A stretch of DNA of 64,000 nucleotides from Pandoraea capi (lineage in GTDB: Bacteria > Pseudomonadota > Gammaproteobacteria > Burkholderiales > Burkholderiaceae). The stretch's first letter is position 1; each line of letters begins with the position of its first letter. The stretch is taken from contig NZ_CABPRV010000002.1 in NCBI RefSeq assembly GCF_902459735.1, positions 248,001 through 312,000 on the forward strand. The letters are read 5' to 3'. Of this stretch, positions 32,523-58,044 are shown piece by piece. Position numbers and translations under genes: made by a program. The notes below the pieces were generated by a model that worked only from the letters and a program-made list of their open reading frames with translations, did not search any database and was not told the origin of the DNA.

Positions 32523-35500
32523 TCAAGGCTGATCATCGCGCGCCTTGAGCTGGTACTGGTACCACGCGATCAACGCCACGATGAACAGCAGGAGGAATAT
32601 CGGGATCATGTAGCCGCGCGCCAGCCATCGCAAGAACGGGTCGCAGAACAGCAGCGCCAGGCTGAGCAGGATCCAGATCCCCGCAATGGCAAGCGAAGGC
32701 GCGTGATAGTAACGCGTCATCCACTCGCGCCAGCGGCACGACACGTAATACGCCACGCCACACCCGATCAGCAACAGCAAGGCGATCTTCGTTGCCAGCC
32801 GGAACGCGAACAGGTTCTCGCACACCGTCTTGCAAACGGCCGAGGACTGCGCGCCTGCGGGAATCTGGTAGTGATCCGCCAGACATTCGCTAATGCTGCG
32901 CGTCATCGTGCAGGCCTGCACCCCTTCCGTCGGTTTGGGGATTAGCGACGCTGCTGACGGCACGGCGGGATCGGTTTTCGACGCCTCCACCGCCGCGGAG
33001 CGAAGTGGCATCGGCCAGAAACCGATACCGCCAAAGTTGTCCTGCGCGTAGACGATATCGTCCTGAAGCTGCTGCCAGTTGTCGTTATCGAACGTGATGA
33101 CGGGAATGATCTGGCGCAGCACCGTGCGACGATCCTCGCCATGCAGTCCGGCTTCGACCGACTCGCGCAGCGCCTTCTTCGAGTCGGTCGTCGGTTCATC
33201 GAGCAGCACGAGGAAATTCGGACGCCGGTTCCGGTCCCGGTCGACACGCGCCAGCAGGTCGGTCGAAACGTTCTTGTCGGTGTCCGTCACGAGTTGCAGC
33301 AGGTTCGAGTAAGTGTAGATGCCATGCCCCACGCGATCGTGGCGCACGAGAATGTCGATGCGATCCCCTGCCCTCGCCCGACGCAACTGCGTGCGAAGCT
33401 GGTCAACGAACTGGTTGAACACCACGACCGACACGGGATCTTCCGGGTAGCCGTCGAAAAACAGCACGACCCCGCTGCCGTTGGTCGGCGCAAAGCGCGC
33501 GCCGAAGGGCAGATGGTTCGACACCGACGCGGTCCAGTTACGCAAGCCGGTCGAGAGCAGCTTCACGATGTCCGCGCCGAGCCGGTTCAGCACGGCCACC
33601 TTGCGATCCTTGTCCAGACGCGTCCAGGTCCGCCAGTCGTTGCGCTGGATCACCCATTGCACGTCGCTCTGATGTCGTTGCGCTACCGAGACGAAGTCAC
33701 CGGGCAACGAGGCGGACGTCTGCGACAACTCCACGAAATTGCTGCCGTAATTGGCTTGCACCAGCGCGCCGGTATCGTCGAACGTTGCACCGTAGTAGCC
33801 GATACGCGTGAGCGTGCTGAAGTCGACGTTCTGCTTCGGTCCGGCCATCCAGAACGGGAAGAAACCATAGACGGTGCCTTGCAGATGGTCTAACAGACAC
33901 CCGCAACCGTCACCGCTCCAGCTCACCTGCCGGGTCGGGTCGAACACCGGCCGCTTGCGGGCGGTCGCGACCAGCGACGGCCGGAAGCGGTCATACAGCG
34001 CCTGCATCAGTTGCGGCAGCGACAAGGTCTCGACGTTGCTGCACGTGCCTTTACGCCAGAGCGCTTCGAGCTGCGCAAACAGCGCCGGGTCGCGCAGCAC
34101 CGCTGACAACTGCTGCATCTGATCGGACGAAATCTTGCGCGCATCGGCCACGCTCCCCGGTATGCCCGTGGGGCAAGCGCCCACGCCTTCGCGCAAGCGC
34201 GCCATCACGGCCCGGTCGAACAGCCACAACTGTGGATACTGCAACCCCTGCAATCCCCCCAGCATGTCGAGCACGACCGGCGGCACCGACTCGTTGCGGC
34301 GGCTCGACGCCAGCTCCGCGAGCGCCTGCGCCGTCAGCACGTAGGTGGTCTGCGACTGCGCGGCGCGCACGATGTCCGGCACGTACGGATCGACCGGCGT
34401 CTTGATCTCCGAGGTGGCGTCGAGAATCGCTTCGTTGAAATCGGCCTGACTGGCGTACTCCTCGGTAAGCCCCGAGACGGCGTCGACGATTTCCGTCGGC
34501 ACACGGTTGTCGTTGCGGAGTTGCTGGAGCGAGGCGTCCGTGAGCTGGTACGTCGTGGTGACGGCCACGGCACGGGCTTCCGGCAGATAGGCTTCGGCAC
34601 GTTTGCCGAGGTCCTTGAGGGCGTCGAGCACGGCGGCATCGAACAGCGGCTGATTCAGATAGACCTTGTCCTGCAAGGCAGAAAGATGGTCGATGACCTT
34701 GGATTTCGACGCCAGCAGGCTGAAGTCGGCGGCGTCGAGCGTGTAGTTGTAGATCGTCAGCAGGGCGCGGTCCGGATCAGGGCCCGCGTTGCGATTCCCG
34801 TCGGTATCCAGGTGATAGAGCCAGAGCATGGCGGCGATCTCGTCGTCCGTGCCCGCAAGGCGAATCTGGTAGTAGCGCGCCTGCTCCTTTGGCTCGAACC
34901 CGTCGATCCAGCGACCGAGGTCTGCGCCGACCAGATCGGCCTTCCATTGCGGATGCGCCCGCACGATCGACGCGAACTTCAGCAACGCCTGCACCGACGC
35001 ACTGGTCAGGTTGCCGACCGGCTGCATCTTGAAGTCGAGCCAGAAGCGATTGAGCCACGACAAGGTGATCGGCCCGACGAGATTGTCCGACAGCGGCCGC
35101 GTGCTTTCACGATAAGCCTGAAGGTAGGCCGGGTCTTCCGAATAGATGACGAGGAGCGCCTGCTGAATGGCGCGTCGCGTGGCCGGCGCCAGATGACGCA
35201 CCACATCGGCGGAAATCAGGACGGTGGACGGGCCGGAGGTCGGCTCCGGCGTGACCTGAACGGTATTGACAATGCGCCACGCCTGCTCGGGCGTCATCGG
35301 CTTGCCGTCGCTGCCAATGGGCGGCGCCATACGCGACACCTTGACCGACGGCGTGTCTGCGGGCGCGGCGACGGCTTGTGTGGGCGCGCCTTTGACGGTT
35401 GACGGCTGCGAGACGGTCGAGGGCTGCGAAGCGGACGTCGCGGGACTCGCTGCCGACGCCGTGGCAGATGCAGGAGGTGCAGCAGGTGTGGCAGAGGGTT

Positions 35501-35810
35501 GTGGCGCAGCCGCAGGCGTTGATGCGGCAGCGGCCGGTGGCGACACAGCGGAAGCGCCCCCGACGGCAGACGCCGGGGCGAGCGCGACCGGCGCAGACAC
35601 AGCCATTGGCGCAGCGGCAGGCCCCGATGCCGGGTGTCCGGCAGGCGACGACGTCGCGGCACTCGCCGCCGACGGCACCGCTGCCACAGCGGGCAGCGAT
35701 ATGAGCGATGCCAGCGCCCCCAGCGACAGGGTCAGCCCCGCCATTCCGGTGGCCAGCAACGAGATTCGTCTGCGCCGGGCGCTGCGTCCCATGAAGTCGA
35801 CGTGGCTCAT
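32523..35810 (-). CDS. eCIS-linked membrane protein with a GH18-like domain
   Basis: A 1095-residue protein, last gene of the contractile operon and one base after the ATPase stop. Residues 1-45 hold an export or anchor segment; ~45-160 is an Ala/Pro/Ser linker; ~160-640 is a helical region I cannot assign; ~645-935 resembles a glycoside hydrolase 18 barrel, starting GTVYGFFPFWMAGPKQNVDF and ending GGIGFWPMPL. The GH18 catalytic DxDxE is not preserved: the corresponding strand reads GVVLFFDGYPED, so it may bind rather than cut glycan. The final ~110 residues have three membrane helices. I infer a surface or periplasmic role in assembly, anchoring or release of the particle. Afp and PVC clusters have no such gene to my knowledge. 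Confidence 0.75.
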   Translation of the reverse strand: MSHVDFMGRSARRRRISLLATGMAGLTLSLGALASLISLPAVAAVPSAASAATSSPAGHPASGPAAAPMAVSAPVALAPASAVGGASAVSPPAAAASTPAAAPQPSATPAAPPASATASAASPATSASQPSTVSQPSTVKGAPTQAVAAPADTPSVKVSRMAPPIGSDGKPMTPEQAWRIVNTVQVTPEPTSGPSTVLISADVVRHLAPATRRAIQQALLVIYSEDPAYLQAYRESTRPLSDNLVGPITLSWLNRFWLDFKMQPVGNLTSASVQALLKFASIVRAHPQWKADLVGADLGRWIDGFEPKEQARYYQIRLAGTDDEIAAMLWLYHLDTDGNRNAGPDPDRALLTIYNYTLDAADFSLLASKSKVIDHLSALQDKVYLNQPLFDAAVLDALKDLGKRAEAYLPEARAVAVTTTYQLTDASLQQLRNDNRVPTEIVDAVSGLTEEYASQADFNEAILDATSEIKTPVDPYVPDIVRAAQSQTTYVLTAQALAELASSRRNESVPPVVLDMLGGLQGLQYPQLWLFDRAVMARLREGVGACPTGIPGSVADARKISSDQMQQLSAVLRDPALFAQLEALWRKGTCSNVETLSLPQLMQALYDRFRPSLVATARKRPVFDPTRQVSWSGDGCGCLLDHLQGTVYGFFPFWMAGPKQNVDFSTLTRIGYYGATFDDTGALVQANYGSNFVELSQTSASLPGDFVSVAQRHQSDVQWVIQRNDWRTWTRLDKDRKVAVLNRLGADIVKLLSTGLRNWTASVSNHLPFGARFAPTNGSGVVLFFDGYPEDPVSVVVFNQFVDQLRTQLRRARAGDRIDILVRHDRVGHGIYTYSNLLQLVTDTDKNVSTDLLARVDRDRNRRPNFLVLLDEPTTDSKKALRESVEAGLHGEDRRTVLRQIIPVITFDNDNWQQLQDDIVYAQDNFGGIGFWPMPLRSAAVEASKTDPAVPSAASLIPKPTEGVQACTMTRSISECLADHYQIPAGAQSSAVCKTVCENLFAFRLATKIALLLLIGCGVAYYVSCRWREWMTRYYHAPSLAIAGIWILLSLALLFCDPFLRWLARGYMIPIFLLLFIVALIAWYQYQLKARDDQP

Positions 35811-35811
35811 A

Positions 35812-37200
35812 TCAGATCGTGCGTCCTTCTTTGAGGTGTTCGCGACGGATGGCGCGCTGCAAATCGGCCTGCGTGACGGTATCGCGCCCGTCGCGATCGG
35901 CCCACATCACGGCATGTCGCGCCACGTTGAGCAGTGCGCCGCCAGAGAGCACATGGGCGCTCGCCAGCCCGGGGAGGTCCACGTCCGCCGCCAGCCCCCG
36001 ACGCTCGGGGAAGAGATTGCGCCAGAGCTGAAGCCGCTGGGCGTCGTCGGGCATGGGAAAGTGAATGGCGCTCTGGAAGCGTCGTGCAAACGCTTCGTCG
36101 ATATTGCCTTTCAGGTTGCTGGCGAGCAGCACCACGCCCGGATAGTCTTCGATGCGTTGAAGCAAATACGCGACCTCCTGATTCGCGTGGCGGTCGTTGG
36201 CGCTACTCCCTTCGGTGCGTTTGCCGAAGAGCGCGTCCGCCTCATCGAAAAAGAGGATCCAGCGCTTGTTCTGCGCCTGATCGAACACGTTGGCCATGTT
36301 CTTCTCGGTCTCACCGATGTACTTCGAGACGATTTTCGACAGGTCGATCCGGTAGACGTCGACGCCTGCCGCCTTGCCGAGCAGCGTGGCCGTGAGCGTC
36401 TTGCCCGTACCCGGCGGCCCGTAGAACAGCGCACGAAAACCAGGCTTCATCATCCGGTCGAGCTGCCAGCGGCGCATGACCGCCTCCCCGCCATCCAGCC
36501 ACTGGCGAATCTGATCGATTTCGTCGATGACGTCCGGCGTCAGCACGAGATCGTGCCAATCGTGCTGCGTGGTGATGCGTTTGGCGGGAAAGCCCGCGCT
36601 GTAATCCGGCTTGTGCTCGCGCCCGGACGTGCTGCGCTCCAGAAAGTCTCGCTCGACGTGCAACGCTGCGGCCAGCGCGGGCTCGCCGTCTGCCCGGCGC
36701 TCCAGCCGGAGGATGCCCGCCCGTGCAAACACGTGATCCGTGTCGAACAGGTCGAGCACCTCGAAGCGGCGCGACAAGTCGTCGCCAGCGAGCACGAACG
36801 CCGCCGTCTCACCGGTCGGCAGCAACCCGCTGTGATGCTGCGCACGCCATCCGCCGAACTCCGTGAACTGGCGCTCGGTGTTCTTGTTCTGCGTGAACAG
36901 CAGATCCAGCGCTTGCGGCCTTACATGCGGCAGCATGGCCAGCATGAGCACGACACGCGCGTCGAAATCGTCCGCGAGACCGTACTCGACCAGCGCCTGG
37001 GCAAACGGCGAGGGATCGTCGGTTAGCGTCGGCGGCGCATGCCCGTGGATATCGTGTGGCACGCCTTCGTGCATGAAATAGGCGTGCAACCGGGTTTCGA
37101 GCACGGCGCCGAACCACGCGATTTCTCGCGACAGGCTCTCGGCGTTGGCAGCCAGCGCGTTGGCGGCGGTCGGTGCAGACGTCATGTCCAGTTCACCCAT
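35812..37200 (-). CDS. AAA+ ATPase of contractile injection systems (Afp15/Pvc15-like)
   Basis: A 462-residue ATPase. Walker A GPPGTGKT spans 261-268, Walker B ILFFDEAD 315-322, and the second region of homology SNLKGNIDEAFARRF 361-375. The N-terminal ~250 residues are the CIS-type winged domain. I chose ATG 37200, with GGAG 8 bases upstream; an ATG at 37185 would overlap the tape-measure stop as ATGA and is also possible. In Afp/PVC this ATPase is essential for proper assembly or effector loading, although the exact step is debated. It is always next to the tape measure, as here. Confidence 0.93.
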   Translation of the reverse strand: MGELDMTSAPTAANALAANAESLSREIAWFGAVLETRLHAYFMHEGVPHDIHGHAPPTLTDDPSPFAQALVEYGLADDFDARVVLMLAMLPHVRPQALDLLFTQNKNTERQFTEFGGWRAQHHSGLLPTGETAAFVLAGDDLSRRFEVLDLFDTDHVFARAGILRLERRADGEPALAAALHVERDFLERSTSGREHKPDYSAGFPAKRITTQHDWHDLVLTPDVIDEIDQIRQWLDGGEAVMRRWQLDRMMKPGFRALFYGPPGTGKTLTATLLGKAAGVDVYRIDLSKIVSKYIGETEKNMANVFDQAQNKRWILFFDEADALFGKRTEGSSANDRHANQEVAYLLQRIEDYPGVVLLASNLKGNIDEAFARRFQSAIHFPMPDDAQRLQLWRNLFPERRGLAADVDLPGLASAHVLSGGALLNVARHAVMWADRDGRDTVTQADLQRAIRREHLKEGRTI

Positions 37201-40200
37201 AGCGGTTGCTCCATCCACGACAGTTGAATCGTGGAGATACCCCACGGCATCTGGCGCATCAGCACATCGATAGTGAGGCGGCGCACGTCCAGATGCCAGC
37301 CGTCTTCGGCCAGCGACAACCGACCGTCACGTTGCAGGAACGCTTCGCGCAGCCCGGCGCGTGAGGTATTGCCAAGCGCAGTCCAGTGGTGGAGCATGGC
37401 GTCGATCATCCGATTGCAAGTCTCGGCTTCCTTCTCCGTGATATCCAGGTGACGCGCCACCGGCGTGGCGAACGGCACACCGCACAGCAGCTTGTGCATC
37501 GTCAACTCATGTTCCGGCGCTTCGGTCTGCCCCGTACCGGCGTAATACAGCAAGAGCACCGCACGCTCGGCAGCGGCTTCGCTGACAAAGCGTCCGTCGT
37601 GAGTGAGTTCGACGAATTCCCACAGCACGGGCATGAACGCACACATCAGGACAATCCCGGCGTGGGGCACATCGAAAGGCGTTTGGGCGGCCGCCTCGTT
37701 CGTGTTCGAAGGGGATGAACGCATGTCGATTCCTGTTTGCTGTTGGACTTGAGCGATCAGCGCGGGCGGCGCCTCGACACCGGCATGACGCGCCAGTCGC
37801 GTCACCACCGATCCGGCGAACACCGCCGAATCGAACGGACGCTGCGGGGCGAATAACCAAGGGAACAGGCTTAGCCAGCGCACACGAGGTAAATCCGACG
37901 CCGCAATGGTCTGCATGGACGTCGCGCACATCTCGGCGATATCCGTCGCGAGACGCAGCATCGTTGCGACCTGCGGCGTGTCACGAGACGACAGCCGGGC
38001 GAGGCCGGGCCACAACGGCTGCGGGATGATATCCAGCCACCGTCCGGCAAGCCCCTCATCGTTTGCGGCCAGCGCAATCACCGGACGCAACACGTGCGCA
38101 CCGGAATAGACGGACTGCCGTATCCAGATATCGAATCCGGACGGCGGCAGTTGTGCGGAACGAAATGCCGAGGAAGTCAGGTAGTCGATGAAGTCGTCTG
38201 GCATGGCGGTGCGACGGGTTTGGGTTTCGGATGGCGCGGCGGCAGATGCCAAATGCGCCGATGCCGGAGGCCCATCTCGTTCTGCGTTTTTTGGGGATGT
38301 GGGGAAAGCACCCGGCAACTGAGGTGTCGTCGCCGCGTCGTGCGCCCGGATTTGCGACTCAGTGTCAGTCGCATCGTCGGGCAATGCTTGCGCATCGTCG
38401 GACGCGGCTTCGCTTAACGCTTCCAGTTCCAGCACGCTATCGCTGGCGAGCGCGGCCGCGACCCTGGCGAAGTACCGGGCGACCGCACTCGGCGGCGTTG
38501 TGGCATCGTCTGGCGCATGCGCGGCAATCGAATGGTAGAGGACGTCACGATGCTCGACGGGAATCACGTCGCTCGTCGCGATCATCGTGTCGATGATGGC
38601 TTGCCAGTCGGTGGCGGTGAGGTCTCCCGCACCGGCGGTCAGCGCAGGATGGGCGGTCGCAAGCTCACGTTGCAGCGTTGCTCGCTGTGCGTCTGTCAGT
38701 CGCGCCGTCTCACCCGTCAGATCGCCGCCTTGCGGCAGCACGTCGCGTCGGAGACCCAGCAGGCGTCGCAGCGCCTCGGTGGACGATGCGATTGGCGCAT
38801 CGCTGCGATCAGCGATGGATGACGCTCCGTCCCGGCTCACCCCCTGTGTCCCGATGACGACTGGCATCTGACTGCCGTTCGGAGAGGCGTCCGCTCGTTC
38901 GTCGTCATGTCCGGAGATGGCAACATCCCTTGTCGGCGAGTTCGTGGACGGTACTGCCGAACTTGCGCTTTCCGTCGCGCGATTCGTCTGGCGTTCGAGT
39001 CGCAGCGAAGGCGTTGCCGTGACCGGCATCGAAAGCCACTGATCGATCAATCGATGCTGCCACGGCGCTGCGGCCGCGCGATGGACGAGCGCGCTCAGTT
39101 GGGTGATGGAAGCGTTAGCACCCCCGCCTCGCAGATGCGTAAATACAGCGTGCCAGACGATTCGCTTCCACGCCTCGAAACTCCATGACGACGGGAGTAT
39201 GGGTAGGGACGTCGATGAGGACCGATCGCTCGCCCGTGCGCCGCTCACGTCAGGCGCACTGACCGCCGTCCCCATCGGCACGCTCTCGGCATCGTCACTC
39301 CCGGTGGTCAGGCGCGGGATGTCACTGTCGATCAGGCGCTCTGGCGAGACGTTGCCGGGCAGCGGATTGGACGGATCGCCCTCATTGAACACGTCCCACG
39401 ACAACGCCGAGAGTGAACGCCAGAGCGACAAGGCCGCGGGGTCAAGAAGCGTCGCGAGATCGGCCAGCATGTCTTCCGGGAAACCGTGCACGACGCGGAT
39501 CAACACGGTGTCGTACCCCGCGTAATGGCGCCAGACGCCGGACAGCGCATCACTTTCGTTGGTCAGCCATCGTTGCCAATCCTCGAACAGCGCCTCCGGG
39601 GAGCCACTCAGCAGCGCGCGGATGAAGCGCTCATGCGCCGGTAGCGCCTCCGGGATCGACGCGGCTTCGGCGTTATCGACGGCAAGCGGCAATGCGTCCG
39701 TCGTGTCGTTCGAACTCGACCGATTGGCCCCTTCGGAATCGCCCGCAGCGACTAGCACCGGACTTGGCGCCGTCGTTCGCTGAACGCCGGGCAAACGCTC
39801 CGGTTCAGGGGGGGACTGAGGATGATCCATGGCGGGTGAACGCCGCGCCTCACCGGTCGCCGTATCCGGCGAGGGCGCGCAGGCGGCGGCTTCAAATGCG
39901 ATCTTCGGCGTGCCTGACGCCTCAAGTCCGTCACCCGACGAGCGTTGCGTCTGCACCGTCCTGTCGTGGGAAACATGCGCAGCGAATGCCGCCCCATGCA
40001 CCAAGGACGCTACGTCGCCGGACCATACACGGCGCCATCCCGATGCGGTGGTCAGCGTCTCGCTCGTGATTGACTCAGAAATGGCCGTGATCCCGACATC
40101 ACTCATATCGGTCTCTGCGAGCGCAACTTCGCCGGAATCCGCCGCAGCATCCGGGTCCGTTGCGTCTTCTGAATGCATGCTCGTGGCCGCATAACCGGTG

Positions 40201-50019: not shown

Positions 50020-50469
50020 CTATCCCTGAGTCGGCGACTCGATCTGCGCCGCCGGCACGTTCGTGCCTTCGAGGAAGTAGAACGGATAGACCATGTTGGT
50101 GCGAGTGTTCGTACCGCGCACGGTGTAGTCGATCAGCACGTCCACACGCCCGTCGATTGCACTCGACGCATCGATCTCGATACGCTCGACCGTCACGCGC
50201 GGCTCGAAGAACAGGATCGCCCGGTCGATGGCGTCGCGCATCTCGGTCATCACGCTTTCGCTGATTTCCTCAAAGACATAGGCCTTGATGCCGCAGCCGA
50301 ACGTCGGCTGCATGATCCGCTCGCCGGGCACGGTCGACAGAATGATGCCGAGGCTTTCCCGAATATCGGTCTCGGCTTCGACCATCTGCGTGCGGCCGTT
50401 CGCGGCGCTGTCGCCGAAGCGCGGCGGAAACGCCCAGCCGGTGCCGAGAAACGATTTGTCTGCGCTCAT
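50020..50469 (-). CDS. gp25-like baseplate protein (Afp9)
   Basis: A 149-residue gp25/lysozyme-like baseplate protein. The conserved core is STVPGERIMQPTFGCGIKAYVFEEISE (residues ~45-70, here split mentally at GERIMQP and FGCGIK), followed by a helix and a beta strand with RVTVERIEID. In T4 and Afp the protein caps the sheath-baseplate junction and starts sheath assembly. It is 27 bases downstream of the PAAR gene on the message. Confidence 0.92.
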   Translation of the reverse strand: MSADKSFLGTGWAFPPRFGDSAANGRTQMVEAETDIRESLGIILSTVPGERIMQPTFGCGIKAYVFEEISESVMTEMRDAIDRAILFFEPRVTVERIEIDASSAIDGRVDVLIDYTVRGTNTRTNMVYPFYFLEGTNVPAAQIESPTQG

Positions 50470-50496: not shown

Positions 50497-50799
50497 TCAC
50501 CCACCGATCATTACCGTCGGGCAACCCATGACGATGGCGCCGCCGTGCGCGCACGTATCGCCGACGCGGGCGGCCGGTTTGCCGCCGATCATCACGGTCG
50601 TCGAGCCCATGACGATGCTGTCCGGCGGGCCGACGCAAATGCAGTTGTCCGTCACCACGGCCGCAGGCAGCTTGCCCACGAGTACGGTCGGCACGCACGG
50701 GCCGATGATCGGGCCGCCAACGTGTGGAATCGGGGCCGGCACGGCGGGCGTCTGCATCGGACAGGTGTGCATGTCGGTGAGTCGGGCGGCCATCGGCAT
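50497..50799 (-). CDS. PAAR-repeat spike tip protein (Afp10)
   Basis: A 100-residue PAAR protein, which sharpens the VgrG spike. The motifs GKPAARVGDTCAHGGAIVMG and VMIGG-type turns occur, with cysteines and histidines (TCAHGG; HTCPM) that could hold a metal ion at the tip. ATG 50799 has AGGAGA 9 bases upstream. It has no extra effector domain. The order VgrG-PAAR-gp25 differs from Afp, where gp25 lies between. Confidence 0.92.
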   Translation of the reverse strand: MPMAARLTDMHTCPMQTPAVPAPIPHVGGPIIGPCVPTVLVGKLPAAVVTDNCICVGPPDSIVMGSTTVMIGGKPAARVGDTCAHGGAIVMGCPTVMIGG

Positions 50800-50855: not shown

Positions 50856-52646
50856 TCAGTTGATCATCACCAGCGCGCCCTTGACGGTCGTCTGTCCGCT
50901 GGCCGAGAGTTCGGCCGTGGCCGAGCCCTTGGCAGTGAAGCCGACCTTCGCGGTGCTACTGATGTTGAGTGCTTCGCTGGTGATGTCGGCCTGCGCTGAA
51001 TGCTCGATATTCGCCACGGCGCTGATGCTCACCTTCCCCTGGGCGTTGATGACGATGTCCTTCGGGCTGTCGAGCGTGATACCGCTGGGTGTCATCTGGA
51101 TCTTGTTGTCGTTCTGATCCGTCAGACAGATCGACTTGGCGTCGTCGCTCATCTGGATGGTGTTGTTCTGCGGCGTGATGAGCGTGATCACCTTCTTGTC
51201 GTCGTCGAAGATGACCTTGAGCAGCCCTTTCGTCCACAACGCCTTCGTATAGTTTTCGGCCGTCAGCTCATACGGCATCTTGCGCTGGCTGCTGTAGACA
51301 CTGCCGAGAACCACCGGGTACGACGGATCGCCGTTGAGATAGCCGAGGATCACTTCGTCGCCGATCTCCGGAATGAAAAACGCCCCGACGCCCGACGATC
51401 CGTAAAAGCTGGCCAGCCGAGCCCAGACACCGACGGTCTCCGCCTGAAGCACCTGCACGGCCACCTGAATCCGGTATTGACTCTCGGGGTCGGCGTCGAG
51501 CTTCATGACCTTCCCGATCTGCAAGCCGCCAACGCCCGGCAGCAAGCCCGACGCCATCACGTCGCCCGAGCCTCGACGTTCGGCGAACGGTTCCGGCGAC
51601 ATGCCGAAATCCACTTCGGTGATCCAGTTGCCGTCGGCAATGCGATGCTGCACGGCGCTGACAAACACGCTGCCGCTGAAGCGCTTTCCTACACCCACGA
51701 GTTCGATCATGGTGCCGGGTTTGGCCGCCGCGCTGCCCTGAAACGACATGCGTCCGCGAATTCGCGCAAGGGCGGCGCGCATTTGCGTGGCATCGCTCCA
51801 TGACTTGAGGTCGTCCGAAGGCACGGGGACCGTCGATTGCAGGCGAAAGGTCGACGGGCTTGCCACGGCGGCCAGCGTCGATGCGCTCAGATTGCCCTGC
51901 GCATACAGCGAGGTCGACGGCGACGTCTGCTGCACCATCGCCTGGGTGCTCGGATCCCAGGCGGCCGCCACCACGCTCTGCAACTGGGTACGCGCATCGA
52001 TATCCGCGGAAAACGACATCAGATCGATGCCGTAAGTCACTTTGAGCACGGCGGCGGCAGATGTCTGCGGCGCTTTGACGGTCACCTTGCCGTTGTCGTC
52101 TGCAATCACCAATGCCCCATTGGCTTCGGCGCGCAGCAGCACGAAGTCCCAATCGGTGCTGTAGAACTGCACGATCTCCTTGTGCTGGGTGGTCGTTGCG
52201 GTCACCTCTGCGTCAGCGCCGACCTTCTCGATCAACTGACTGATGATGTCGCTGTCCTTGCTGTCGATGTAGTTGGCGTTGTTGCAGCCAATCGTCATCT
52301 TCACCGCCTTGTGACGGCACTCGATCACCAGACGCGCCTCGTTGTTTCCCGTGATGCGGATGCTGTGACGGATCACCACACCGTCGAAGATCTGCGTGGC
52401 GTTCGCGCCGTATCCCGCACTGATGACAATGGCCGTGCCCGGTGCGAACGTCTCCAGATCGCTCACCGGGAAGTCGTTATCGGGCATGTCGCCGTCGAGG
52501 ATTTCGATGCGCGCCTGACAAATGCGGCCGACCGCGCGCTCGATGTCGACCGAGATCACGCGAATCGTGTCGGCAATGGCGCTACCCCCGCTCGTGATCG
52601 TGAGCTTCAGGACAGCGCTGGTATTCAGAGCGGGAGAATCGGCCAT
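50856..52646 (-). CDS. VgrG-like spike protein (Afp8)
   Basis: A 596-residue VgrG-family spike. An N-terminal gp27-like hub (about 1-360, including IECRHKAVKMTIGCNN and FYSTDWDFVLLRAEANG) is followed by the gp5-type OB fold (about 370-460: GVGAFFIPEIGDEVILGYLNGDP, with GSVYSS) and a C-terminal beta-helical needle (~470-596). There is no toxin extension. It forms the trimeric spike at the particle tip, under the PAAR cone. ATG 52646 follows the LysM gene by 28 bases. Confidence 0.93.
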   Translation of the reverse strand: MADSPALNTSAVLKLTITSGGSAIADTIRVISVDIERAVGRICQARIEILDGDMPDNDFPVSDLETFAPGTAIVISAGYGANATQIFDGVVIRHSIRITGNNEARLVIECRHKAVKMTIGCNNANYIDSKDSDIISQLIEKVGADAEVTATTTQHKEIVQFYSTDWDFVLLRAEANGALVIADDNGKVTVKAPQTSAAAVLKVTYGIDLMSFSADIDARTQLQSVVAAAWDPSTQAMVQQTSPSTSLYAQGNLSASTLAAVASPSTFRLQSTVPVPSDDLKSWSDATQMRAALARIRGRMSFQGSAAAKPGTMIELVGVGKRFSGSVFVSAVQHRIADGNWITEVDFGMSPEPFAERRGSGDVMASGLLPGVGGLQIGKVMKLDADPESQYRIQVAVQVLQAETVGVWARLASFYGSSGVGAFFIPEIGDEVILGYLNGDPSYPVVLGSVYSSQRKMPYELTAENYTKALWTKGLLKVIFDDDKKVITLITPQNNTIQMSDDAKSICLTDQNDNKIQMTPSGITLDSPKDIVINAQGKVSISAVANIEHSAQADITSEALNISSTAKVGFTAKGSATAELSASGQTTVKGALVMIN

Positions 52647-52674: not shown

Positions 52675-53358
52675 TCAGACGAGCGGCGGGAAGCGCAGCA
52701 TCATGCCCGGCTCCAGCTTGCGAAAGCCGGTCAGGTTGTTGATACGCGCGACCTCGCGGTAATACGACGGATCGTTGTAGATGCGATTGCACAGCAGCGG
52801 CAGCGTGTCGCCGGCCGTCACCTCCACGAGATGGCTCAGATCCGGCGAACTGAGATTCGCCCGCAGCGAGCTTTCCGTCGCACTGACCCAACCGACGATG
52901 CCCAGCGTGACCCGCGCGCGCAGAGGCTCGCCGGTCGGTTTGAACATCGTGTAATCGAGTCCGATCGACTCGACCCGACCGAAGAAGATGAACGTTCCCC
53001 ACAACAAGCGCACATAGTTGGGTTCGTGCTTCTTGCCGTCGTACTTGTAGATCACCGCCAGCATGGCGTCGATCATGTCTTTCACGCTGCGTGAGCCGGT
53101 ACCGTCGACGACACCGGTGCCGTCGAGCACCAGGTTGTCGATGGTGATGGTCTCGGGCCGCACCGCGCTGAAACGCGGTATCGCGCTGGGCTGCCCCAGC
53201 GTCTGCTTCTTGTTGTATTCGATGCTCAGCTTGCGCTTGTAACCGATCGGATTGATCAGCGCTTCGAACGGCGTGCGGCTGCCGTCCACAGAGATCTGCC
53301 CGCTGGAAACGGTGCACGGGGCGATACTGAACTTGCGCCGCGTGAGACTGGTCGCCAT
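52675..53358 (-). CDS. LysM-type baseplate/tube-initiation protein (Afp7)
   Basis: A 227-residue protein. The C-terminal LysM (about 180-226) reads HLVEVTAGDTLPLLCNRIYND, then INNL and LEPGMMLRFPP. The N-terminal two-thirds are a phage gpX/gp53-like fold with FEALINPIGYKRKLSIEYN. In Afp/PVC this protein sits between the spike hub and the first tube ring. It starts 3 bases after the DUF5908 stop, so the two are probably coupled. Confidence 0.9.
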   Translation of the reverse strand: MATSLTRRKFSIAPCTVSSGQISVDGSRTPFEALINPIGYKRKLSIEYNKKQTLGQPSAIPRFSAVRPETITIDNLVLDGTGVVDGTGSRSVKDMIDAMLAVIYKYDGKKHEPNYVRLLWGTFIFFGRVESIGLDYTMFKPTGEPLRARVTLGIVGWVSATESSLRANLSSPDLSHLVEVTAGDTLPLLCNRIYNDPSYYREVARINNLTGFRKLEPGMMLRFPPLV

Positions 53359-53361: not shown

Positions 53362-53556
53362 TTAACGCTCCCGGGCGCGTTCGAGCATCTCGCGCACCAG
53401 CGCCCGGCATTCCGCCAGCAGTTCCGCACGCGCCTGATCGTCAAACGCGCTCGCGGCGACAGGCAGATCCTCGACCAGTGCCGGCTGTCCGGCGCTCTGT
53501 GCCGCGCGCTGCACCACCGTCGATTTGATGCTCAGATGACCGATTTCGATAGGCAC
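53362..53556 (-). CDS. DUF5908 small baseplate protein (Afp6-like)
   Basis: A 64-residue protein with the DUF5908 start MPIEIGHLSIKSTV, which is near-diagnostic for eCIS loci (typical form MPIEIRELVIKATV). It starts at GTG 53556 with GGGGGA upstream. The C-terminal half is helical and charged (RALVREMLERARER). Its exact position in the particle is not known to me. Confidence 0.85.
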   Translation of the reverse strand: MPIEIGHLSIKSTVVQRAAQSAGQPALVEDLPVAASAFDDQARAELLAECRALVREMLERARER

Positions 53557-53610: not shown

Positions 53611-54075
53611 CTACATCATGCGCGACGAAAACGTGTAGCTCAGCACGATCTTCTCGATGGCGACTTCGTTTTTCGTCGAACCGAAGCTCTCGATTTCCCA
53701 CTTCACCGGATAAGCGTTCGCGAAGGTCCAGATCCGGATCGGCAGGTGCAGTTCGTCGAGCAACTGCACCATCAGCGTTTGCGGCCGGATCGGCACGATG
53801 AACTCGCCTTCGAACACGGAACGGCACCACATCACTAACGGCGACGTCATGCCCGCAATCCCGCGCTTTAGCTCCAGATGCGGATGCTTTACGCCCTTGG
53901 GGAGCGTGTGGACGAAGCGGTTCTCGCCGCCCTCGGGCACCGACTCGGTATCGATCTCCGTCGTGATGCCGGAGACCTCCTGAAACGAGGCGTCGACAGC
54001 GCCCGCCGTGGACGAAAACATCACGCGGAAATGGAAAGCCGACGGCGGATAGGGATCGAAAGGCGATGACGGCAT
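53611..54075 (-). CDS. Second tube/inner-tube initiator protein (Afp5-like)
   Basis: A 154-residue T4 gp19-type tube protein. SFQEVSGITTEIDTESV-like sequence (about 30-46), PHLELKRGI and WTFANAYPVKWEIESF are typical. It differs clearly from the other tube protein, matching the two-tube arrangement (bulk tube plus baseplate-proximal ring) of Afp. ATG 54075 is chosen; a TTG at 54084 would add three residues. No strong ribosome-binding site is visible. Confidence 0.9.
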   Translation of the reverse strand: MPSSPFDPYPPSAFHFRVMFSSTAGAVDASFQEVSGITTEIDTESVPEGGENRFVHTLPKGVKHPHLELKRGIAGMTSPLVMWCRSVFEGEFIVPIRPQTLMVQLLDELHLPIRIWTFANAYPVKWEIESFGSTKNEVAIEKIVLSYTFSSRMM

Positions 54076-54199
54076 GTCGGGCAAACGGGAAACGCTTGGG
54101 AAACTCGGAAAGCTCGATAAGCAGAAGCCGCCAGCAGGGCGAACCGCAAGCCGGCGCTGGCGGCCCGCGCAGCGGGCGCACCAGTGCGGCGAACGGGAC

Positions 54200-54658
54200 T
54201 CAGCTGTTGGCGATCGTCAGACCTTCGTGCACGATCTCGATGGTCTCGATGGCGACTTCGTTGCCTTCGGACTTCAGGTCGGTACCGGTGATCTTCGTCG
54301 GCCAGGCGTTGGCGAGCGTCCAGACCATCGTCGGCTTGCCGGCCTCGTCGAGCAGGCTGATCGTGACCGGCACCCGCTTGATCGTGTTCATCTTGATCTG
54401 GTTGAACCAGTCCCAGAACTTGTTATCCGACTTGAACACGCCCTTCTTCATGGTGACGTTGCCGTACTTCTTCATGCCCGGCATCTTGATGACGGAGAAC
54501 TCCGGGCTGTCGCCATGCCGGTACTTGATTTCCTCGGACTGGACATCCAGCCCGCTCACTTCCTGAAACGACATGACCTGCGAGTCCCACTTCACCTGAA
54601 AGTAGAACTTGGGAAGGGGCCAAACCGTGGTGGATTGTTTCGAACCATCGTCTGCCAT
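54200..54658 (-). CDS. Main tube protein (Afp1-like, T4 gp19 family)
   Basis: A 152-residue tube protein. The core is FQVKWDSQVMSFQEVSGLDV, with YRHGDSPEF and the paired NVTMKKGVF and WTLANAWPTKITGTDL strands. ATG 54658 has GAGG 6 bases upstream; a GTG one codon earlier is possible. It forms the hexameric rings through which cargo passes. It lies 124 bases after the sheath stop, the usual sheath-then-tube order. Confidence 0.92.
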   Translation of the reverse strand: MADDGSKQSTTVWPLPKFYFQVKWDSQVMSFQEVSGLDVQSEEIKYRHGDSPEFSVIKMPGMKKYGNVTMKKGVFKSDNKFWDWFNQIKMNTIKRVPVTISLLDEAGKPTMVWTLANAWPTKITGTDLKSEGNEVAIETIEIVHEGLTIANS

Positions 54659-54782
54659 CACACACCTCGTCTATGGATTGCATGCGGAAAATGCCGGTCG
54701 GTACTGGCGCCACTTGCGCTATTCGCAATTGACGTCGCGCACGCTCGACTCGACCGGTCAAACGGATCGTGACCTAGCGGTC

Positions 54783-56507
54783 TCAGGATTTCTGCATCTG
54801 TTGCTGGAACGTGAGTTCGATGAACTCGGCCGGACGGCTCACCGCCACCAGCACCGTCACCTTGAGCATGCCTTCGAGAATGTCGTCGCCGGTCATCGTC
54901 TCACCGAGCCCGACGAAAACCTGGAAGGCATCGTCCGGGCTCGCGCCGGCCAGTCCGCCGCGCTTCCACACGCTGGTGAGGAAGTTGCGCACCATGCTCT
55001 TGATCGTCACCCACGTATTGGCGGTGTTCGGCTCGAACACATAGGCCTTACACGCCAGACGCAGCGATTCCTCGATCATGATCATCGTGCGGCGTACGCT
55101 CAGGTAGCGCCAGTCGAGGCTGTTGCCGTCGAGCGTGCGCGCGCCCCACACCATCACGCCTTCGCCGATGAAACTGCGAATCGCATTGACGGACTTGCCC
55201 GTGGTCGGCACGTTCAGGTCTTCCTGATCCGCGTTGGAGATGTTCACGCTCGGCGAGACCACACCGTTCAGGCTGATGTTCGCCGGGGCCTTCCACACGC
55301 CCCGCGTGTTGTCGACCAGCGTGTAGAGCCCTGCCATACCGGCGGCGGGCGGCATCAGGTTGACCTTCTTCTGGAGCGCCTGAAGCACTTGCACGTAGAC
55401 GTTGCTGATGACGCTCAACGTCTTGTGCAGCGTGGCAATGTCGTCTTTCGACATCGGTGCGGCGGGCGCGGCACCAGCGTCGGCGGCTTTCGCGGCATCC
55501 GCGTCGCCGTCGGCCGCCGGAGCGGCAGGCGCTGCGGCAGCGCCGTCAGCCGTCGCGGCAGGTGCGCCGCCCGTCAGCTTGGCGATCACATCCTTGACCT
55601 GTTTCGCCTTCGCCTTGTCGGCGGGCGACGCGCTGTCAGGCGGATTGATCACGGCGCCGAGTTCCGTGGTGATCAGCGTCTGGAGTTGCGCGGGGTTGGA
55701 AATCTTCGTGAAGTCGAGGTCCTTGTCCGTCACGATCGACGTGTTGACCCACGGGTAATACGCCGCGCCGAAGTCGAGGAACGACGACCCCACGTCGTCG
55801 CGGAAATTCGTGATGCAATCGCCGCCGGGCGCTTGACGGTCCCACATGCCGTCGAACAGGTCGAGAATCGCGAAGCGGTTGCGCATCGTATAGCCGCAGT
55901 GCTGAAGCGCGTGCGTCTGTACCTTTGCGCAATCCTGCCGGGCGAGCCGTACCGCGTCGGGCACGAGCACCATCGTCGGCTCCTGCTCCTTGACAAGGCT
56001 ATCGATGCCGTCGATCAGCTTGCCCGAATCGATGTCGCCGTCCGCATAGGTGCCGACCGACACGATGTAGCACGGCCCGCCGCCATTCTGGAAGAAGAAC
56101 AGCATGCTGTAGTACAGCAGGTATTCCTTCGTCTGCGGGGTGAACTTGAACGGCTTGCGCGCGCCCACGGCCCCGATGAAGAGATCGGTGACGACAGGAC
56201 GCTTGGGCGGATCGCCCGCGCCGTCGGCCGGAGCATCGGCGGCGGGCTTGTCAGCCGCTTTGTCGGCCGATTTATCGGTCGTGATGGCGTCGAGGGAATA
56301 CGTCGTCGGCGGCGGCCCGCCGAAGTACATGACGAACTCGGCCATCGAACTGATGCGCCAGGGTGTGCCGCCCAGCGGCGTACCCTTGTTATCGGCGAAC
56401 TGCGTGTAGCCGATGAACGCTGGCACTGCTGTGGCGACTTCGACCACGGAATTGGGAAACGCGTTTTGTTCGACTACGTATACACCTGGTGTTTTGTATT
56501 GCGCCAT
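54783..56507 (-). CDS. Contractile tail sheath protein (Afp2-4-like)
   Basis: A 574-residue sheath protein. The N terminus MAQYKTPGVYVVEQNAFPNS and the C-terminal FVGLGETMTGDDILEGMLKVTVLVAVSRPAEFIELTFQQQM (in parts) are typical of sheath subunits. The start has GAGGTGA 5 bases upstream. Only one sheath gene is present, whereas Afp and PVC have three. A middle segment (DNA 55450-55575) is an Ala/Asp-rich low-complexity insertion not expected to fold, probably surface exposed. Confidence 0.93.
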   Translation of the reverse strand: MAQYKTPGVYVVEQNAFPNSVVEVATAVPAFIGYTQFADNKGTPLGGTPWRISSMAEFVMYFGGPPPTTYSLDAITTDKSADKAADKPAADAPADGAGDPPKRPVVTDLFIGAVGARKPFKFTPQTKEYLLYYSMLFFFQNGGGPCYIVSVGTYADGDIDSGKLIDGIDSLVKEQEPTMVLVPDAVRLARQDCAKVQTHALQHCGYTMRNRFAILDLFDGMWDRQAPGGDCITNFRDDVGSSFLDFGAAYYPWVNTSIVTDKDLDFTKISNPAQLQTLITTELGAVINPPDSASPADKAKAKQVKDVIAKLTGGAPAATADGAAAAPAAPAADGDADAAKAADAGAAPAAPMSKDDIATLHKTLSVISNVYVQVLQALQKKVNLMPPAAGMAGLYTLVDNTRGVWKAPANISLNGVVSPSVNISNADQEDLNVPTTGKSVNAIRSFIGEGVMVWGARTLDGNSLDWRYLSVRRTMIMIEESLRLACKAYVFEPNTANTWVTIKSMVRNFLTSVWKRGGLAGASPDDAFQVFVGLGETMTGDDILEGMLKVTVLVAVSRPAEFIELTFQQQMQKS

Positions 56508-56529
56508 GAGTTCACCTCGGTCATCGATG

Positions 56530-57453
56530 TCAATTGATGTAGATCTCGGATACCAGTACTGCCCGGCTTTGCGCCGATTGTTCAGCTTCCTGCGGTTTCT
56601 GCACCTTCGGCGTCTTCTGCGTCAGGCTGCCGATGTCGGCATTGGGCAGTCTCCGGATCAACACGCGTTCACCCGACCGGCCCCGTTCCCGCAACTGAAA
56701 GCGCTGCGGGTATTGCTGCTGCATTGCAATCTCTTGCTCACTCTCGAAGATCACCGCACGGCGCCCGCCCGAGCGGTCTTCGCTGCCGGTGGTGACGAAA
56801 CTCACCGTCTCGTCGAGATCGACGACGCTTAGCGCACCGCTGTCCTGCGGGCACACGTAGTAGTAGCGCCAGCAACTCGTGCGCGCGGCGAAATTGACGA
56901 CGTAATCGATGCCGCGCTGCCCGTCGCTGTCGTCGAGGGCGACGTGATCCGACAGATCGATCTGCGCGACGAGCAAGGGCGGATTCACGCGATCGGCGCG
57001 TTCGAGATGCGCAGCGAGCGCCGGCGTGTCCACGGCAACGGCATCGGTCGCTTCGATGCACGCCTCGGCATGCAGGCGACGCGACGACGTCTGCCCGTCC
57101 ACCGGAACGCTGGACCGACTCTGCACGACATAGACCGACGACCTGCCGGGCATGGTCGGCAGCGTGTAGAGGGAGAAATCGGTGTCTTGCGCGTACCACT
57201 TGAAGGTGGCGACGGCGTCGCCTGCGCGAAGCCTGTCGAGCAGCACCGCACGACGATCCGACGCGCAGAACACGGCCACGCCCTGCCGGTGCGGGCGCAC
57301 CAGCAAATCACGCCGCCGCACCCAGTCGGCGGTCGCGGGCGTGGCCACGTGACGAAGCCACTGACCCGGCGAAGGCCAGTACGCGTGAGTGACGTCGACA
57401 GTGAATAGCCGCGTGTAGCCCGGCACTCCTGGCGCGCAAGCAGACGTAATCAT
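56530..57453 (-). CDS. eCIS-operon protein of unknown function between cap and sheath
   Basis: A 307-residue protein I do not recognise. It is beta-rich for the first ~240 residues (YTRLFTVDVTHAYWPSPGQW; CASDRRAVLLDRL; YYYVCPQDSGALSVVDL) and ends in a helix plus basic Gln/Lys-rich tail with a final IYIN. Its start is 15 bases after the cap-protein stop and its end is 22 bases before the sheath start, so it is clearly part of the structural operon. A sheath-associated or terminator accessory role is possible; no motif defines it. Confidence 0.72.
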   Translation of the reverse strand: MITSACAPGVPGYTRLFTVDVTHAYWPSPGQWLRHVATPATADWVRRRDLLVRPHRQGVAVFCASDRRAVLLDRLRAGDAVATFKWYAQDTDFSLYTLPTMPGRSSVYVVQSRSSVPVDGQTSSRRLHAEACIEATDAVAVDTPALAAHLERADRVNPPLLVAQIDLSDHVALDDSDGQRGIDYVVNFAARTSCWRYYYVCPQDSGALSVVDLDETVSFVTTGSEDRSGGRRAVIFESEQEIAMQQQYPQRFQLRERGRSGERVLIRRLPNADIGSLTQKTPKVQKPQEAEQSAQSRAVLVSEIYIN

Positions 57454-57468
57454 GCCCCGTAGTTCCGC

Positions 57469-58044
57469 TCAGTGGTTAAGTACAGGCACCGGCGCGCGCA
57501 CGGTCGGTACAGTACCGGTGATGTCGTCGGTGTCGGGCGCCATCAGCCGCACCTTGTACAACACGGACGGCAGGTATTTACCGCCGAGCATCGTCCAGAG
57601 GTTGCTGAGCTCCCGGATATTGAGGTTCTCGATTTCCAGCACGAGCCGGTCGATGCGCGGATCGAGCGACGGCGACGAGCGACGATCGAACACTGGATTG
57701 CGCTGGAAGAAGGCGATGGCGCCGGAGATGAGCTTCAGGGCGTCTTCGTAATTGCCGCCGGTGAAATTCGCGGCGACCATCACGTAGAGATTCAGATAGA
57801 GCGGCGCCACGCCGACCGACAGATGCGAAGCGCCCGCGTCGCCGGGAATGCCCTTGCGCACCGGCCCGGTATCGCGCTCGATGTGTGTGAGGATGACAAC
57901 CAGACGGTTGTTCGTATTCGCGACAGCCTGCCCGTTGAGGTCCACCAGACCGGACATCGTCACGATGTCGTCGGTCAGTGTGTAGGCTTGCTTAAGATGT
58001 TCGTTGAGCCGCCCCGCAAGGTGGCCCACAGCAGCGTTAATCAT
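57469..58044 (-). CDS. Tube terminator cap protein (DUF4255, Afp16-like)
   Basis: A 191-residue DUF4255 protein. The start is MINAAVGHLAGRLNEHLK, with VDLNGQ and NRLVVILTHIERD typical of the family, and the segment LSVGVAPLYLNLYVMVAANF, then FQRNPVF. Afp16 caps the tube and fixes particle length together with the tape measure. ATG 58044 has GGGGAA 5 bases upstream. It is the first gene of the structural operon, and the promoter must lie in the 244-base gap 58045-58288. Confidence 0.92.
   Translation of the reverse strand: MINAAVGHLAGRLNEHLKQAYTLTDDIVTMSGLVDLNGQAVANTNNRLVVILTHIERDTGPVRKGIPGDAGASHLSVGVAPLYLNLYVMVAANFTGGNYEDALKLISGAIAFFQRNPVFDRRSSPSLDPRIDRLVLEIENLNIRELSNLWTMLGGKYLPSVLYKVRLMAPDTDDITGTVPTVRAPVPVLNH

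Follow-up and report, generated by a model that had tools for sequence, protein, structure and literature searches.

CIS Related to the Pandoraea Cluster

Clade Ib of the contractile injection systems (CIS), as set out in the accessible text of PMC8894135, includes AlgoCIS and the MACs, which are free, and also the membrane-anchored T6SS subtype iv (T6SSiv). AlgoCIS, from Algoriphagus machipongonensis, is described as having a cap adaptor (PMC8894135) and a 1443-residue tail fiber, Alg19, and as being free in the cytoplasm (PMC8894135, PMC13314943). In T6SSiv, from Candidatus Amoebophilus asiaticus, the CIS is fixed to the inner membrane of the cell that makes it (PMC8894135, PMC11566945). In the thylakoid CIS of Anabaena (tCIS), a helix of Cis13 and an extended Cis12 provide the anchor (PMC8894136). 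Streptomyces CisA and haloarchaeal Hbor_38620 are conserved membrane proteins of CIS clusters and are the proposed membrane link (PMC12237407, PMC11566945). These statements, and those cited below, follow excerpts of the sources.

The Afp/PVC systems form clade Ia. They have three sheath genes, and their gp25 gene comes before the PAAR gene. SalCIS is represented by PDB entries 9R9H/I/N and 9RCE; a literature search on SalCIS and its PDB codes returned no paper naming it, and a search on CIS in Pandoraea returned no paper. From the genes of a CIS cluster, it is hard to tell a free particle from a cell-bound weapon.

The Pandoraea capi Cluster

The window is a stretch of 64,000 nucleotides of Pandoraea capi DNA. 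Its segment 32523–58044 holds a complete CIS of 17 closely spaced genes, all on the minus strand and transcribed from 58044 to 32523; coordinates, strand and spacing are as the first-pass annotation gave them. The parts follow in transcription order, with one gene from elsewhere in the window listed last.

57469..58044, minus: cap protein (Pvc16_N/DUF4255; Cis16a), operon start; PF14065 9.4e-32; PDB 9r9n_B 2e-32, Algo cap 3e-10
56530..57453, minus: cap adaptor (Cis16b; position as Alg16B), 307 aa; wide family profile vs PDB 9r9n_C, 'SalCis16b - cap', 2.3e-19
54783..56507, minus: single sheath (Cis2), 574 aa, with Ala/Pro-rich inserts; PF17482, PF04984; PDB 9r9h_T 9e-186, Algo 3e-106, Pvc3 6e-52
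54200..54661, minus: inner tube 1; PF06841 1.8e-50; 99-100% identical in 12 congeners
53611..54084, minus: inner tube 2 / tube adaptor; PF06841 5.5e-36; CIS5_fam below cut-off
53362..53556, minus: small DUF5908 protein, 64 aa; PF19265 9.7e-11
52675..53358, minus: CIS_tube / LysM-like hub protein, 227 aa; PF19266 5.5e-38
50856..52646, minus: VgrG-like spike, 596 aa; PF04717 3.5e-22; PF05954 below cut-off
50497..50799, minus: PAAR spike tip, 100 aa, without extension; PF05488 2.1e-21
50020..50469, minus: gp25-like baseplate wedge (Cis9); PF04965 3.6e-24
46108..50010, minus: Baseplate J / cage protein (Cis11), 1300 aa; PF04865 2.4e-4, just under cut-off; PDB 9rce_A 8e-101, Algo 5e-88
45312..46145, minus: short Cis13-type fiber, 277 aa; family profile vs 7b5h_AE, All3316/Cis13, 4.9e-5 over the first 46 positions
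44929..45315, minus: 128-aa gene, no assigned role; in 12/12 congeners at 59-73% identity; no Pfam match
42314..44934, minus: baseplate wedge Cis12, likely start 44934, open frame to 45124; PDB Alg12 7.5e-67, SalCis12 7.6e-58
37182..42290, minus: tape measure, ~1700 aa, start uncertain, open frame to 42581; PF19268 CIS_TMP 1.3e-81
35812..37245, minus: AAA ATPase (Cis15), 477 aa; PF00004 4.2e-29
32523..35810, minus: probable envelope protein, 1095 aa, last operon gene; PDB 9r9a_B 1e-34 by profile, 2e-9 by single sequence; hydropathy
12861..14759, minus: eCIS_core protein, 632 aa, candidate cargo, 17.8 kb past the operon end; PF13699 5.4e-12

The first-pass annotation had not remarked on the probable membrane protein with its GH18-like domain, on the cap adaptor or the eCIS_core protein, or on what kind of fiber the short one is.

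Among the 16 genes first listed, intergenic gaps run from -64 to 121 bp with a single exception of 377 bp, and this gap contains the 128-aa gene. No gene of the operon is interrupted. Where the tape measure and the Cis12 wedge start is uncertain, as their open frames extend into neighboring genes. Pfam profiles name Pvc16_N, the sheath, two gp19-like tubes, DUF5908, CIS_tube, the spike, PAAR, gp25, Baseplate_J (slightly below cut-off), CIS_TMP and the AAA protein. Other profile and PDB comparisons name the Alg12/SalCis12-like wedge, the cap adaptor and the Cis13-like fiber. The cap adaptor has no significant Pfam match, and a profile built from congeners alone gave no useful match; the wider profile succeeded. 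Likewise, a single-sequence PDB search with the fiber gave no useful match, and its family profile did.

One cluster holds a sheath, tube, spike/PAAR, gp25, J protein, wedge, CIS-type tape measure, AAA ATPase and Pvc16 cap, the set by which the eCIS super-group is recognized. Judged by these genes, the cluster is a complete non-phage CIS of that super-group. The operon is not a chance assembly, since the order of 16 of its genes is preserved across 12 congeners and dN/dS against four congeners is 0–0.45.

Pfam searches of the operon and 17 other window proteins matched no head, terminase, portal or integrase family, and among the operon proteins there was no match to TssJLM, the TssBC sheath or ClpV. 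A prophage or R-type tailocin was rejected on the lack of head-gene matches and because no phage record spans 80% of the sheath; the 20 records listed cover 32–37%. A classical T6SS (subtypes i–iii) was rejected on the second set of families. The parts list of a complete CIS, and the absence of capsid, terminase, portal and integrase genes, had been read from the letters alone and hold under profile searches, the check that had been proposed, which placed the operon with neither prophages nor T6SSs.

Pfam also bears out the claim of one sheath gene in the operon, and on this ground an Afp/PVC type was rejected. A genome-wide Pfam search found one further sheath (G000:C5), sited among prophage-like reading frames, a setting judged from the frames rather than from profiles. 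The PAAR gene precedes gp25 in transcription, as had been noted. The first-pass annotation set the single sheath against the three of Afp/PVC and called the gene order altered; neither is an oddity. Outside the genus, 32 genomes (18 + 14) have a CIS tape measure, of which 27 were read at one locus each, leaving out G170, G257, G360, G381 and G428. Among the 12 CIS of the same type read in Burkholderiales, 11 have a single sheath (the upstream half was not found in G015), and in 10 the PAAR gene lies between those for the spike and gp25 (the G281 set has no PAAR call at that place). PAAR also precedes gp25 in the Aureibacter, Persicobacter and Azospirillum clusters. By these gene maps, a single sheath with PAAR before gp25 is the normal arrangement of a lineage near AlgoCIS/T6SSiv.

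Relation to Described Systems

Among solved structures, those of SalCIS come nearest in sheath, cap, cap adaptor and J protein, though clearly diverged in sequence; the SalCIS wedge scores just behind that of AlgoCIS. Since these relatives have been solved, part of our findings is probably already known to their depositors. AlgoCIS shares the cap, the Alg11-/Alg12-type baseplate and the sheath. The sheath and baseplate are nearer to AlgoCIS than to Afp/PVC, with SalCis nearer for most parts, and the placement in clade Ib follows this PDB ranking rather than a phylogeny with named clade references. tCIS resembles the Pandoraea CIS in its sheath (9e-97), J protein, wedge and the N-terminal end of the Cis13-type fiber. 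Afp/PVC systems have the same general part list but weaker sequence similarity. The likeness to T6SSiv lies in the proposed mode of operation, attachment to the inner membrane.

Unlike AlgoCIS, the Pandoraea operon has no gene for a long Alg19-like fiber among its 17 genes, all accounted for, and has only the 277-aa Cis13-like fiber. The latter is strongly conserved (dN/dS 0.03–0.12) and lacks a membrane helix (peak hydropathy 0.77). Whereas tCIS is anchored through Cis13 and Cis12, the candidate anchor in Pandoraea is a separate large protein, the product of the last operon gene.

The 1095-Residue Protein

This gene probably encodes a membrane protein. Simple hydropathy finds a signal-peptide-like N-terminal end and three C-terminal hydrophobic helices. 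A PG_binding_1-like stretch is seen by eye at about residues 236–262, and residues 644–841 form a degenerate GH18-like domain by distant homology, for which hhalign against two Bacteroidota GH18 proteins gave 97.3%. The window's own protein has no significant Pfam family. Its PDB homologue, 9r9a_B, of 864 aa, is titled 'Uncharacterized protein'. The code 9r9a adjoins those of the closest sheath and cap structures, and by this proximity the entry probably belongs to SalCIS.

From 112 relatives of the protein, 80 were taken, giving 79 loci spanning Beta- and Gammaproteobacteria and Nitrospirota. In 74 of the 79 loci, the CIS ATPase lies immediately 5′ of the homologue on the same strand, with a spacing of ≤9 bp. 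L157 and L158, loci without a CIS, are clear exceptions; the remaining three loci without the ATPase (L160, L176 and L179) are at contig edges. A rapidly built tree of 100 ATPases, 96 of them different, needs a single change for the 87 whose CIS has a 1095-aa homologue, with support of 81. Conversely, 5 of the 27 CIS read have a long tape measure without the homologue, one of the five at a contig edge; in G220, the ATPase is at the contig end, and therefore the following gene cannot be judged. In the Afp/PVC-type sets G310, G338 and G390 (at least three sheath frames each) and G371 (two), the tape measures are 463–676 aa long and no 1095-aa homologue was found.

By hydropathy, with some members cut by contig ends, 65 of the 79 members scored have the three C-terminal helices and 14 show no such set, L148 being left out of this count because its landmark motif is missing. 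A hydrophobic N-terminal end is found in 55/79 and a mid-protein hydrophobic stretch in 10/79. The PG_binding_1-like stretch occurs in 7/51 members and is below the Pfam cut-off in the four shown. The catalytic motif of GH18 is DxxDxDxE. In this family the Glu is retained in 7/77 members and the third Asp in 5/77, so that the family lacks the motif as a rule; its relation to the GH18 fold comes from hhalign only. Because these positions are degenerate, binding is likelier than cutting.

Both Persicobacteraceae CIS read include a GH18 protein of the same layout (PF00704), and the Persicobacter relative retains a DGLNIDFE stretch. Those of the Persicobacteraceae GH18 proteins that sit on plasmids are related to the 1095-aa protein by profile comparison only. 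A plasmid- or virus-borne origin of the latter was rejected, as no BLAST-level homologue was found in plasmids (1e-5) or viral contigs. Among the literature matches listed, none describes a GH18 or other glycosyl hydrolase as a CIS component. Going by their published descriptions, CisA and Hbor_38620 are unlike the 1095-aa protein in size, domains and topology.

To summarize, the locus has a membrane protein, so judged by hydropathy, tied to its CIS cluster, as in membrane-anchored CIS. Its sequence marks are those of a protein of the inner membrane that lies mostly in the periplasm, and it is coupled to this type of CIS. Such a membrane protein, which accompanies one type of CIS in Beta- and Gammaproteobacteria and Nitrospirota and has distant relatives in Bacteroidota, offers a testable marker of the mode of action.

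Docked Syringe or Free Particle

The first-pass annotation held that such sets build free particles. This is not established for the present lineage, as clade Ib includes the membrane-anchored T6SSiv (PMC8894135). We lean, with modest confidence, towards a functional toxin-delivering CIS of the AlgoCIS/T6SSiv lineage that would dock to the producer's own envelope and may fire there, instead of acting as a free particle. The baseplate, with Cis11, Cis12 and the short Cis13 fiber, would dock onto the 1095-aa protein, whose peptidoglycan-binding-like and GH18-like parts would grip the cell wall. A trigger would then contract the sheath, which would push the tube, the spike and PAAR out across the envelope. 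The load would be dispersed eCIS_core proteins, with loading aided by the AAA ATPase. Counted for docking are the strict linkage to the ATPase, the C-terminal helices of most family members, the PG_binding_1-like stretch, the degenerate catalytic positions, the likeness to the Persicobacteraceae GH18 proteins, the lack of an Alg19-like fiber among the 17 genes, the conservation of the short fiber and the PDB homologue with its adjoining code; the eCIS_core proteins count for the cargo. Precedents for a membrane-linked CIS are the haloarchaeal CIS (PMC11566945), CisA (PMC12237407) and T6SSiv (PMC8894135). Counted against it are the free AlgoCIS of the same clade, the homologues without a CIS in L157 and L158, and the five CIS with a long tape measure but no such protein, as well as helices and a signal peptide called by simple hydropathy and not seen in every member, PG_binding_1 hits below cut-off and the lack of a significant Pfam family in the window's own protein.

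The strongest rival, which we consider unlikely though well short of negligible, is a classical free eCIS, assembled in the cytoplasm and released as a few cells lyse, with the short fiber binding targets and the 1095-aa protein serving as a lysis or release factor that combines a GH18-like wall enzyme with holin-like helices. AlgoCIS, a free eCIS with a similar sheath, belongs to this clade too (PMC8894135), the cell wall is a possible substrate of a GH18 fold, the Persicobacter relative retains its DGLNIDFE stretch, and the N-terminal end of the fiber weakly resembles Afp/PVC-type fibers (E 0.11 and 0.71). However, the catalytic positions are degenerate in nearly all family members, for a lysis gene so strict a tie to the CIS ATPase would be unnecessary, and a receptor binder would be expected to vary more than this fiber does.

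A cytoplasmic, self-acting CIS of the Streptomyces/tCIS kind seems improbable. It would fire under stress at the producer's own membrane for programmed death, with the membrane protein as a CisA-like trigger; CisA is a CIS-linked membrane protein required for firing (PMC12237407), and the fiber resembles Cis13, by which tCIS is anchored in thylakoids (PMC8894136). Yet the dispersed and diverse eCIS_core proteins of every carrier point to attack on others, and the fiber, unlike Cis13 of tCIS, lacks a membrane helix. A relic or prophage remnant without function is scarcely credible and was rejected on purifying selection: the CIS is patchy, with 13 carriers among 32 Pandoraea genomes and other genes occupying its interval in two non-carriers, but the best tblastn piece covers 85–100% of every gene in 12 congeners, the divergent tape measure excepted, the dN of tube 1 is 0 against each of four congeners, and no phage head family was matched by the operon or other window proteins searched with Pfam.

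Extending the docked reading, we put forward, as a tentative proposal to which we give slightly less than even credence, that Proteobacterial CIS of the present type, which are filed as eCIS, form a widespread envelope-anchored, contact-firing class, T6SSiv-like and arisen apart from the classical T6SS. One protein would serve as its trans-envelope anchor, by way of three membrane helices and a GH18-like domain that grips the wall but is catalytically dead, and the eCIS_core toxins that it delivers would be encoded away from the operon.

Candidate Cargo

The window's eCIS_core protein (12861–14759) scores 46.1 bits against PF13699, where the cut-off is 22, and is a candidate cargo by this domain. 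Across the 32 Pandoraea genomes, eCIS_core proteins are found in 13/13 CIS carriers and 0/19 non-carriers. This exact match suggests that presence–absence patterns can reveal cargo even if it is encoded off the operon. From 19 eCIS_core matches, 10 proteins (one, L229, from the window's own genome) were scanned with Pfam along with the window's own, the second match in G416 being excluded; 3 of the 10 show weak toxin-domain matches.

The CIS Operon and Its Lineage

The operon lies in a 5.85 Mb genome, on contig C2 (248001–312000 for the window), and its genes are read in one direction, as follows.

58044 to 32523, minus strand: CIS operon of 17 genes
Genes 1–6, minus strand: cap, cap adaptor, sheath, tube 1, tube 2, DUF5908
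Genes 7–10, minus strand: CIS_tube/LysM-like hub, VgrG-like spike, PAAR, gp25
Genes 11–14, minus strand: J (Cis11), Cis13-like fibre of 277 aa (45312–46145), a 128-aa protein with no assignment, wedge (Cis12)
Genes 15–17, minus strand: tape measure, AAA ATPase (Cis15), probable envelope protein of 1095 aa (32523–35810)

Profile and PDB matches to the parts bear out the first-pass annotation of a minus-strand set of 17 CIS genes. The 16 genes first listed are spaced by −64 to 121 bp, with one exception of 377 bp; this gap contains the 128-aa gene. The region was also said to have no capsid or integrase, and indeed Pfam matched no integrase or head family among the operon proteins and 17 other proteins of the window. 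A second sheath gene of the genome, at G000:C5:354168-354659 (loci L080 and L081), is surrounded by prophage-like frames.

By sequence, the nearest solved proteins are those of PDB entries 9R9H/I/N and 9RCE, two chains of which are named SalCis12 and SalCis16b. Next in the ranking are AlgoCIS and the Anabaena tCIS, with Afp and PVC more distant; the wedge is an exception, AlgoCIS scoring slightly above SalCis12. PMC8894135 places AlgoCIS, MACs and the membrane-anchored T6SSiv together in clade Ib. We take the Pandoraea CIS to be of the clade Ib lineage, an assignment made from the PDB ranking rather than from a tree of named references.

The gene order had been described as altered. PAAR does precede gp25, but the arrangement is no oddity: PAAR is flanked by spike and gp25 in 10 of 12 Burkholderiales clusters of the same type from outside the genus, the other two being G015, where the upstream half was not found, and G281, where no PAAR was called there. 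The same order is seen in the Aureibacter, Persicobacter and Azospirillum clusters, and 11 of the 12 Burkholderiales clusters have a single sheath. The Pandoraea order is ordinary for its lineage; the system adds a new member to a lineage already known. No paper treating Pandoraea together with CIS was found in the literature searched.

Conservation in Pandoraea

Of 32 Pandoraea genomes, 13 have a close ATPase (at least 82% identity), the window's own genome among them. The 12 other carriers have all of the 16 genes first listed, in unchanged order, and all 12 have the 128-aa gene. When compared with four of these congeners, tube 1 has a dN/dS of 0, and most structural genes, together with the 1095-aa gene, fall between 0 and 0.22. 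The cap adaptor and DUF5908 have values of 0.25–0.37, the tape measure 0.35–0.45. The operon is intact and kept.

In the non-carriers G392 and G424, the two flanking genes are about 13–14 kb apart, with other genes between them. In five carriers (G448, G449, G451, G453 and G454), the stretch read on either side of the operon contains neither flanking gene, G448, G449 and G454 having only weak matches of 31–32% to the flanking ABC-transporter gene. It follows that the position of the operon is not fixed. Beside the operon, at 28395–29890 of the window, are a HipA-like toxin gene and an HTH gene; among the regions of the 12 congeners, they are present only in G400.

The 1095-aa Protein Is Linked to the CIS ATPase

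Across 84,980 scanned species genomes, 112 relatives of the 1095-aa protein turned up, of which 79 loci were kept. In 74 of these, the CIS ATPase gene is directly upstream on the same strand, always at a spacing of 9 bp or less. The five exceptions are three contig edges and two homologues with no CIS nearby, in a Nitrosomonas MAG (L157:9986-11761) and a Sideroxydans MAG (L158:9524-11086); the latter two are orphan copies or parts of scattered clusters. At the BLAST level, no relatives were found in plasmids or viral contigs. In a quick tree built from 100 ATPases, 96 of them different, a single change accounts for the 87 that belong to CIS with a 1095-aa-type protein (support 81), long branches making the deep joins unsure.

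Outside the genus, 27 of the 32 CIS found were read in order, one locus per genome. The 12 with a 1095-aa-type protein all have a tape measure of at least 1175 aa. Among the 15 without one, 10, including multi-sheath sets, have a tape measure of at most 804 aa; the other five have long tape measures, one of them at a contig edge. Three of these five (G307, G369 and G205) encode, beyond the cap gene, a 285-aa protein with hydrophobic segments, perhaps another anchor. These three (L084, L086 and L098) represent a related CIS type, in which the cap gene follows the ATPase and the 285-aa protein is conserved.

Other layouts were met. G115 and G218 (L191–L194) have a CIS with a 503–507-aa tape measure, a 910–942-aa gene after the wedge and, after the ATPase, a 1058–1119-aa protein with hydrophobic segments. 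The otherwise similar CIS of G220 (L207, L208) has three extra reading frames between tape measure and ATPase. In Herbaspirillum rhizosphaerae (L107), the 1095-aa homologue has downstream of it a further set of AAA, sheath, tube and hub genes, as if another CIS or tail locus lay there.

Probable Envelope Protein or Possible Release Factor

The 1095-aa protein has no significant match in Pfam or NCBIfam. Its family profile matches PDB chain 9r9a_B at 1e-34 (2e-9 for the single protein); over a different stretch, the profile also matches a Cas7-11 entry (9e-7). Since a homologue is in the PDB, the depositors of 9r9a probably know more about proteins of this type. By hydropathy, the protein starts with a signal-peptide-like stretch, continues as a long soluble part and ends in three hydrophobic helices. 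Scored in the same way, 65 of the 79 homologues have the three C-terminal helices, 55 a hydrophobic N-end and 10 a hydrophobic mid-protein stretch, several members being cut by contig ends.

The CIS clusters of Aureibacter and Persicobacter hold GH18-annotated proteins (PF00704, 1e-18 and 8e-40) that, judged by eye, begin with a signal-like stretch and carry hydrophobic segments at the C-end. Aligned to the Pandoraea family with hhalign, they match over 161 columns (97.3%, E 1.8e-11). PG_binding_1 is touched by 7 of 51 homologues (best 1e-4; under the Pfam cut-off in at least four), and 7 of 51 have a match to the Ig-like He_PIG. As the GH18-like and PG_binding_1-like matches sit in relatives, any such domain is assigned to the Pandoraea protein by homology only. 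The literature searched gave no account of a CIS component that is a GH18-membrane protein.

The main rival reading is a free eCIS for which the 1095-aa protein serves as a lysis or release factor. The GH18 motif is DxxDxDxE. In the aligned columns of the 1095-aa family, 7 of 77 members have the Glu and 5 the third Asp, so most members should be catalytically inactive. These degenerate positions speak, though not conclusively, against this rival reading.

A Proposed Mode of Action

On sequence evidence, the CIS is linked to a probable envelope protein. From its parts, a contractile sheath-tube is predicted, with a long tape measure. Taking 0.15 nm of tube per tape-measure residue as a rule of thumb, one would expect a tape measure of about 1700 aa to yield a tube of roughly 250 nm. 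We suggest that the baseplate docks onto the 1095-aa envelope protein, that firing would proceed through the producer's own envelope, and that eCIS_core proteins may be delivered. Published parallels are Streptomyces CisA (PMC12237407), a CIS-linked membrane protein, and the membrane-anchored T6SSiv (PMC8894135). A third is a haloarchaeal CIS (PMC11566945), which is membrane-bound and associated with a conserved protein of the membrane.

The 277-aa fibre bears on docking. A fibre that chooses a target would be expected to vary, whereas no such variation would be expected in one that attaches to a docking protein of its own cell. Identity in the congeners is 81–96%, with a dN/dS of 0.03–0.12. 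The first 46 positions of the family profile match tCIS Cis13 (4.9e-5); the profile also matches a protein named bd2133 (2e-4), and has non-significant matches to AfpX13 and another tail fibre. Hydropathy gives no membrane helix.

Candidate Cargo

The effector-type domain eCIS_core (PF13699), which we take to be the former DUF4157, occurs in 13 of the 32 Pandoraea genomes, exactly the 13 CIS carriers. The chance that two sets of 13 coincide is 1 in 347,373,600 for independent genomes, which these are not. DUF4157 is linked to CIS toxins in PMC8213781. The copy in the window is as follows.

12861–14759: eCIS_core gene, 17.8 kb from the operon

Among 19 matches, this copy is the nearest to its own operon, the remainder lying either on a different contig or at a distance of at least tens of kilobases. 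The genome of the window has three matches, one of which (L230) spans only part of the domain. Pfam gives weak toxin-domain matches in 3 of 10 fetched eCIS_core proteins: Ntox15 (25 residues only) and an ADP-ribosyltransferase just above the cut-off, and a nuclease below it. After the eCIS_core gene in the window, on the same strand, is an 810-aa open frame (10278–12710) with no Pfam match; if a gene, it could encode a partner or a second cargo.
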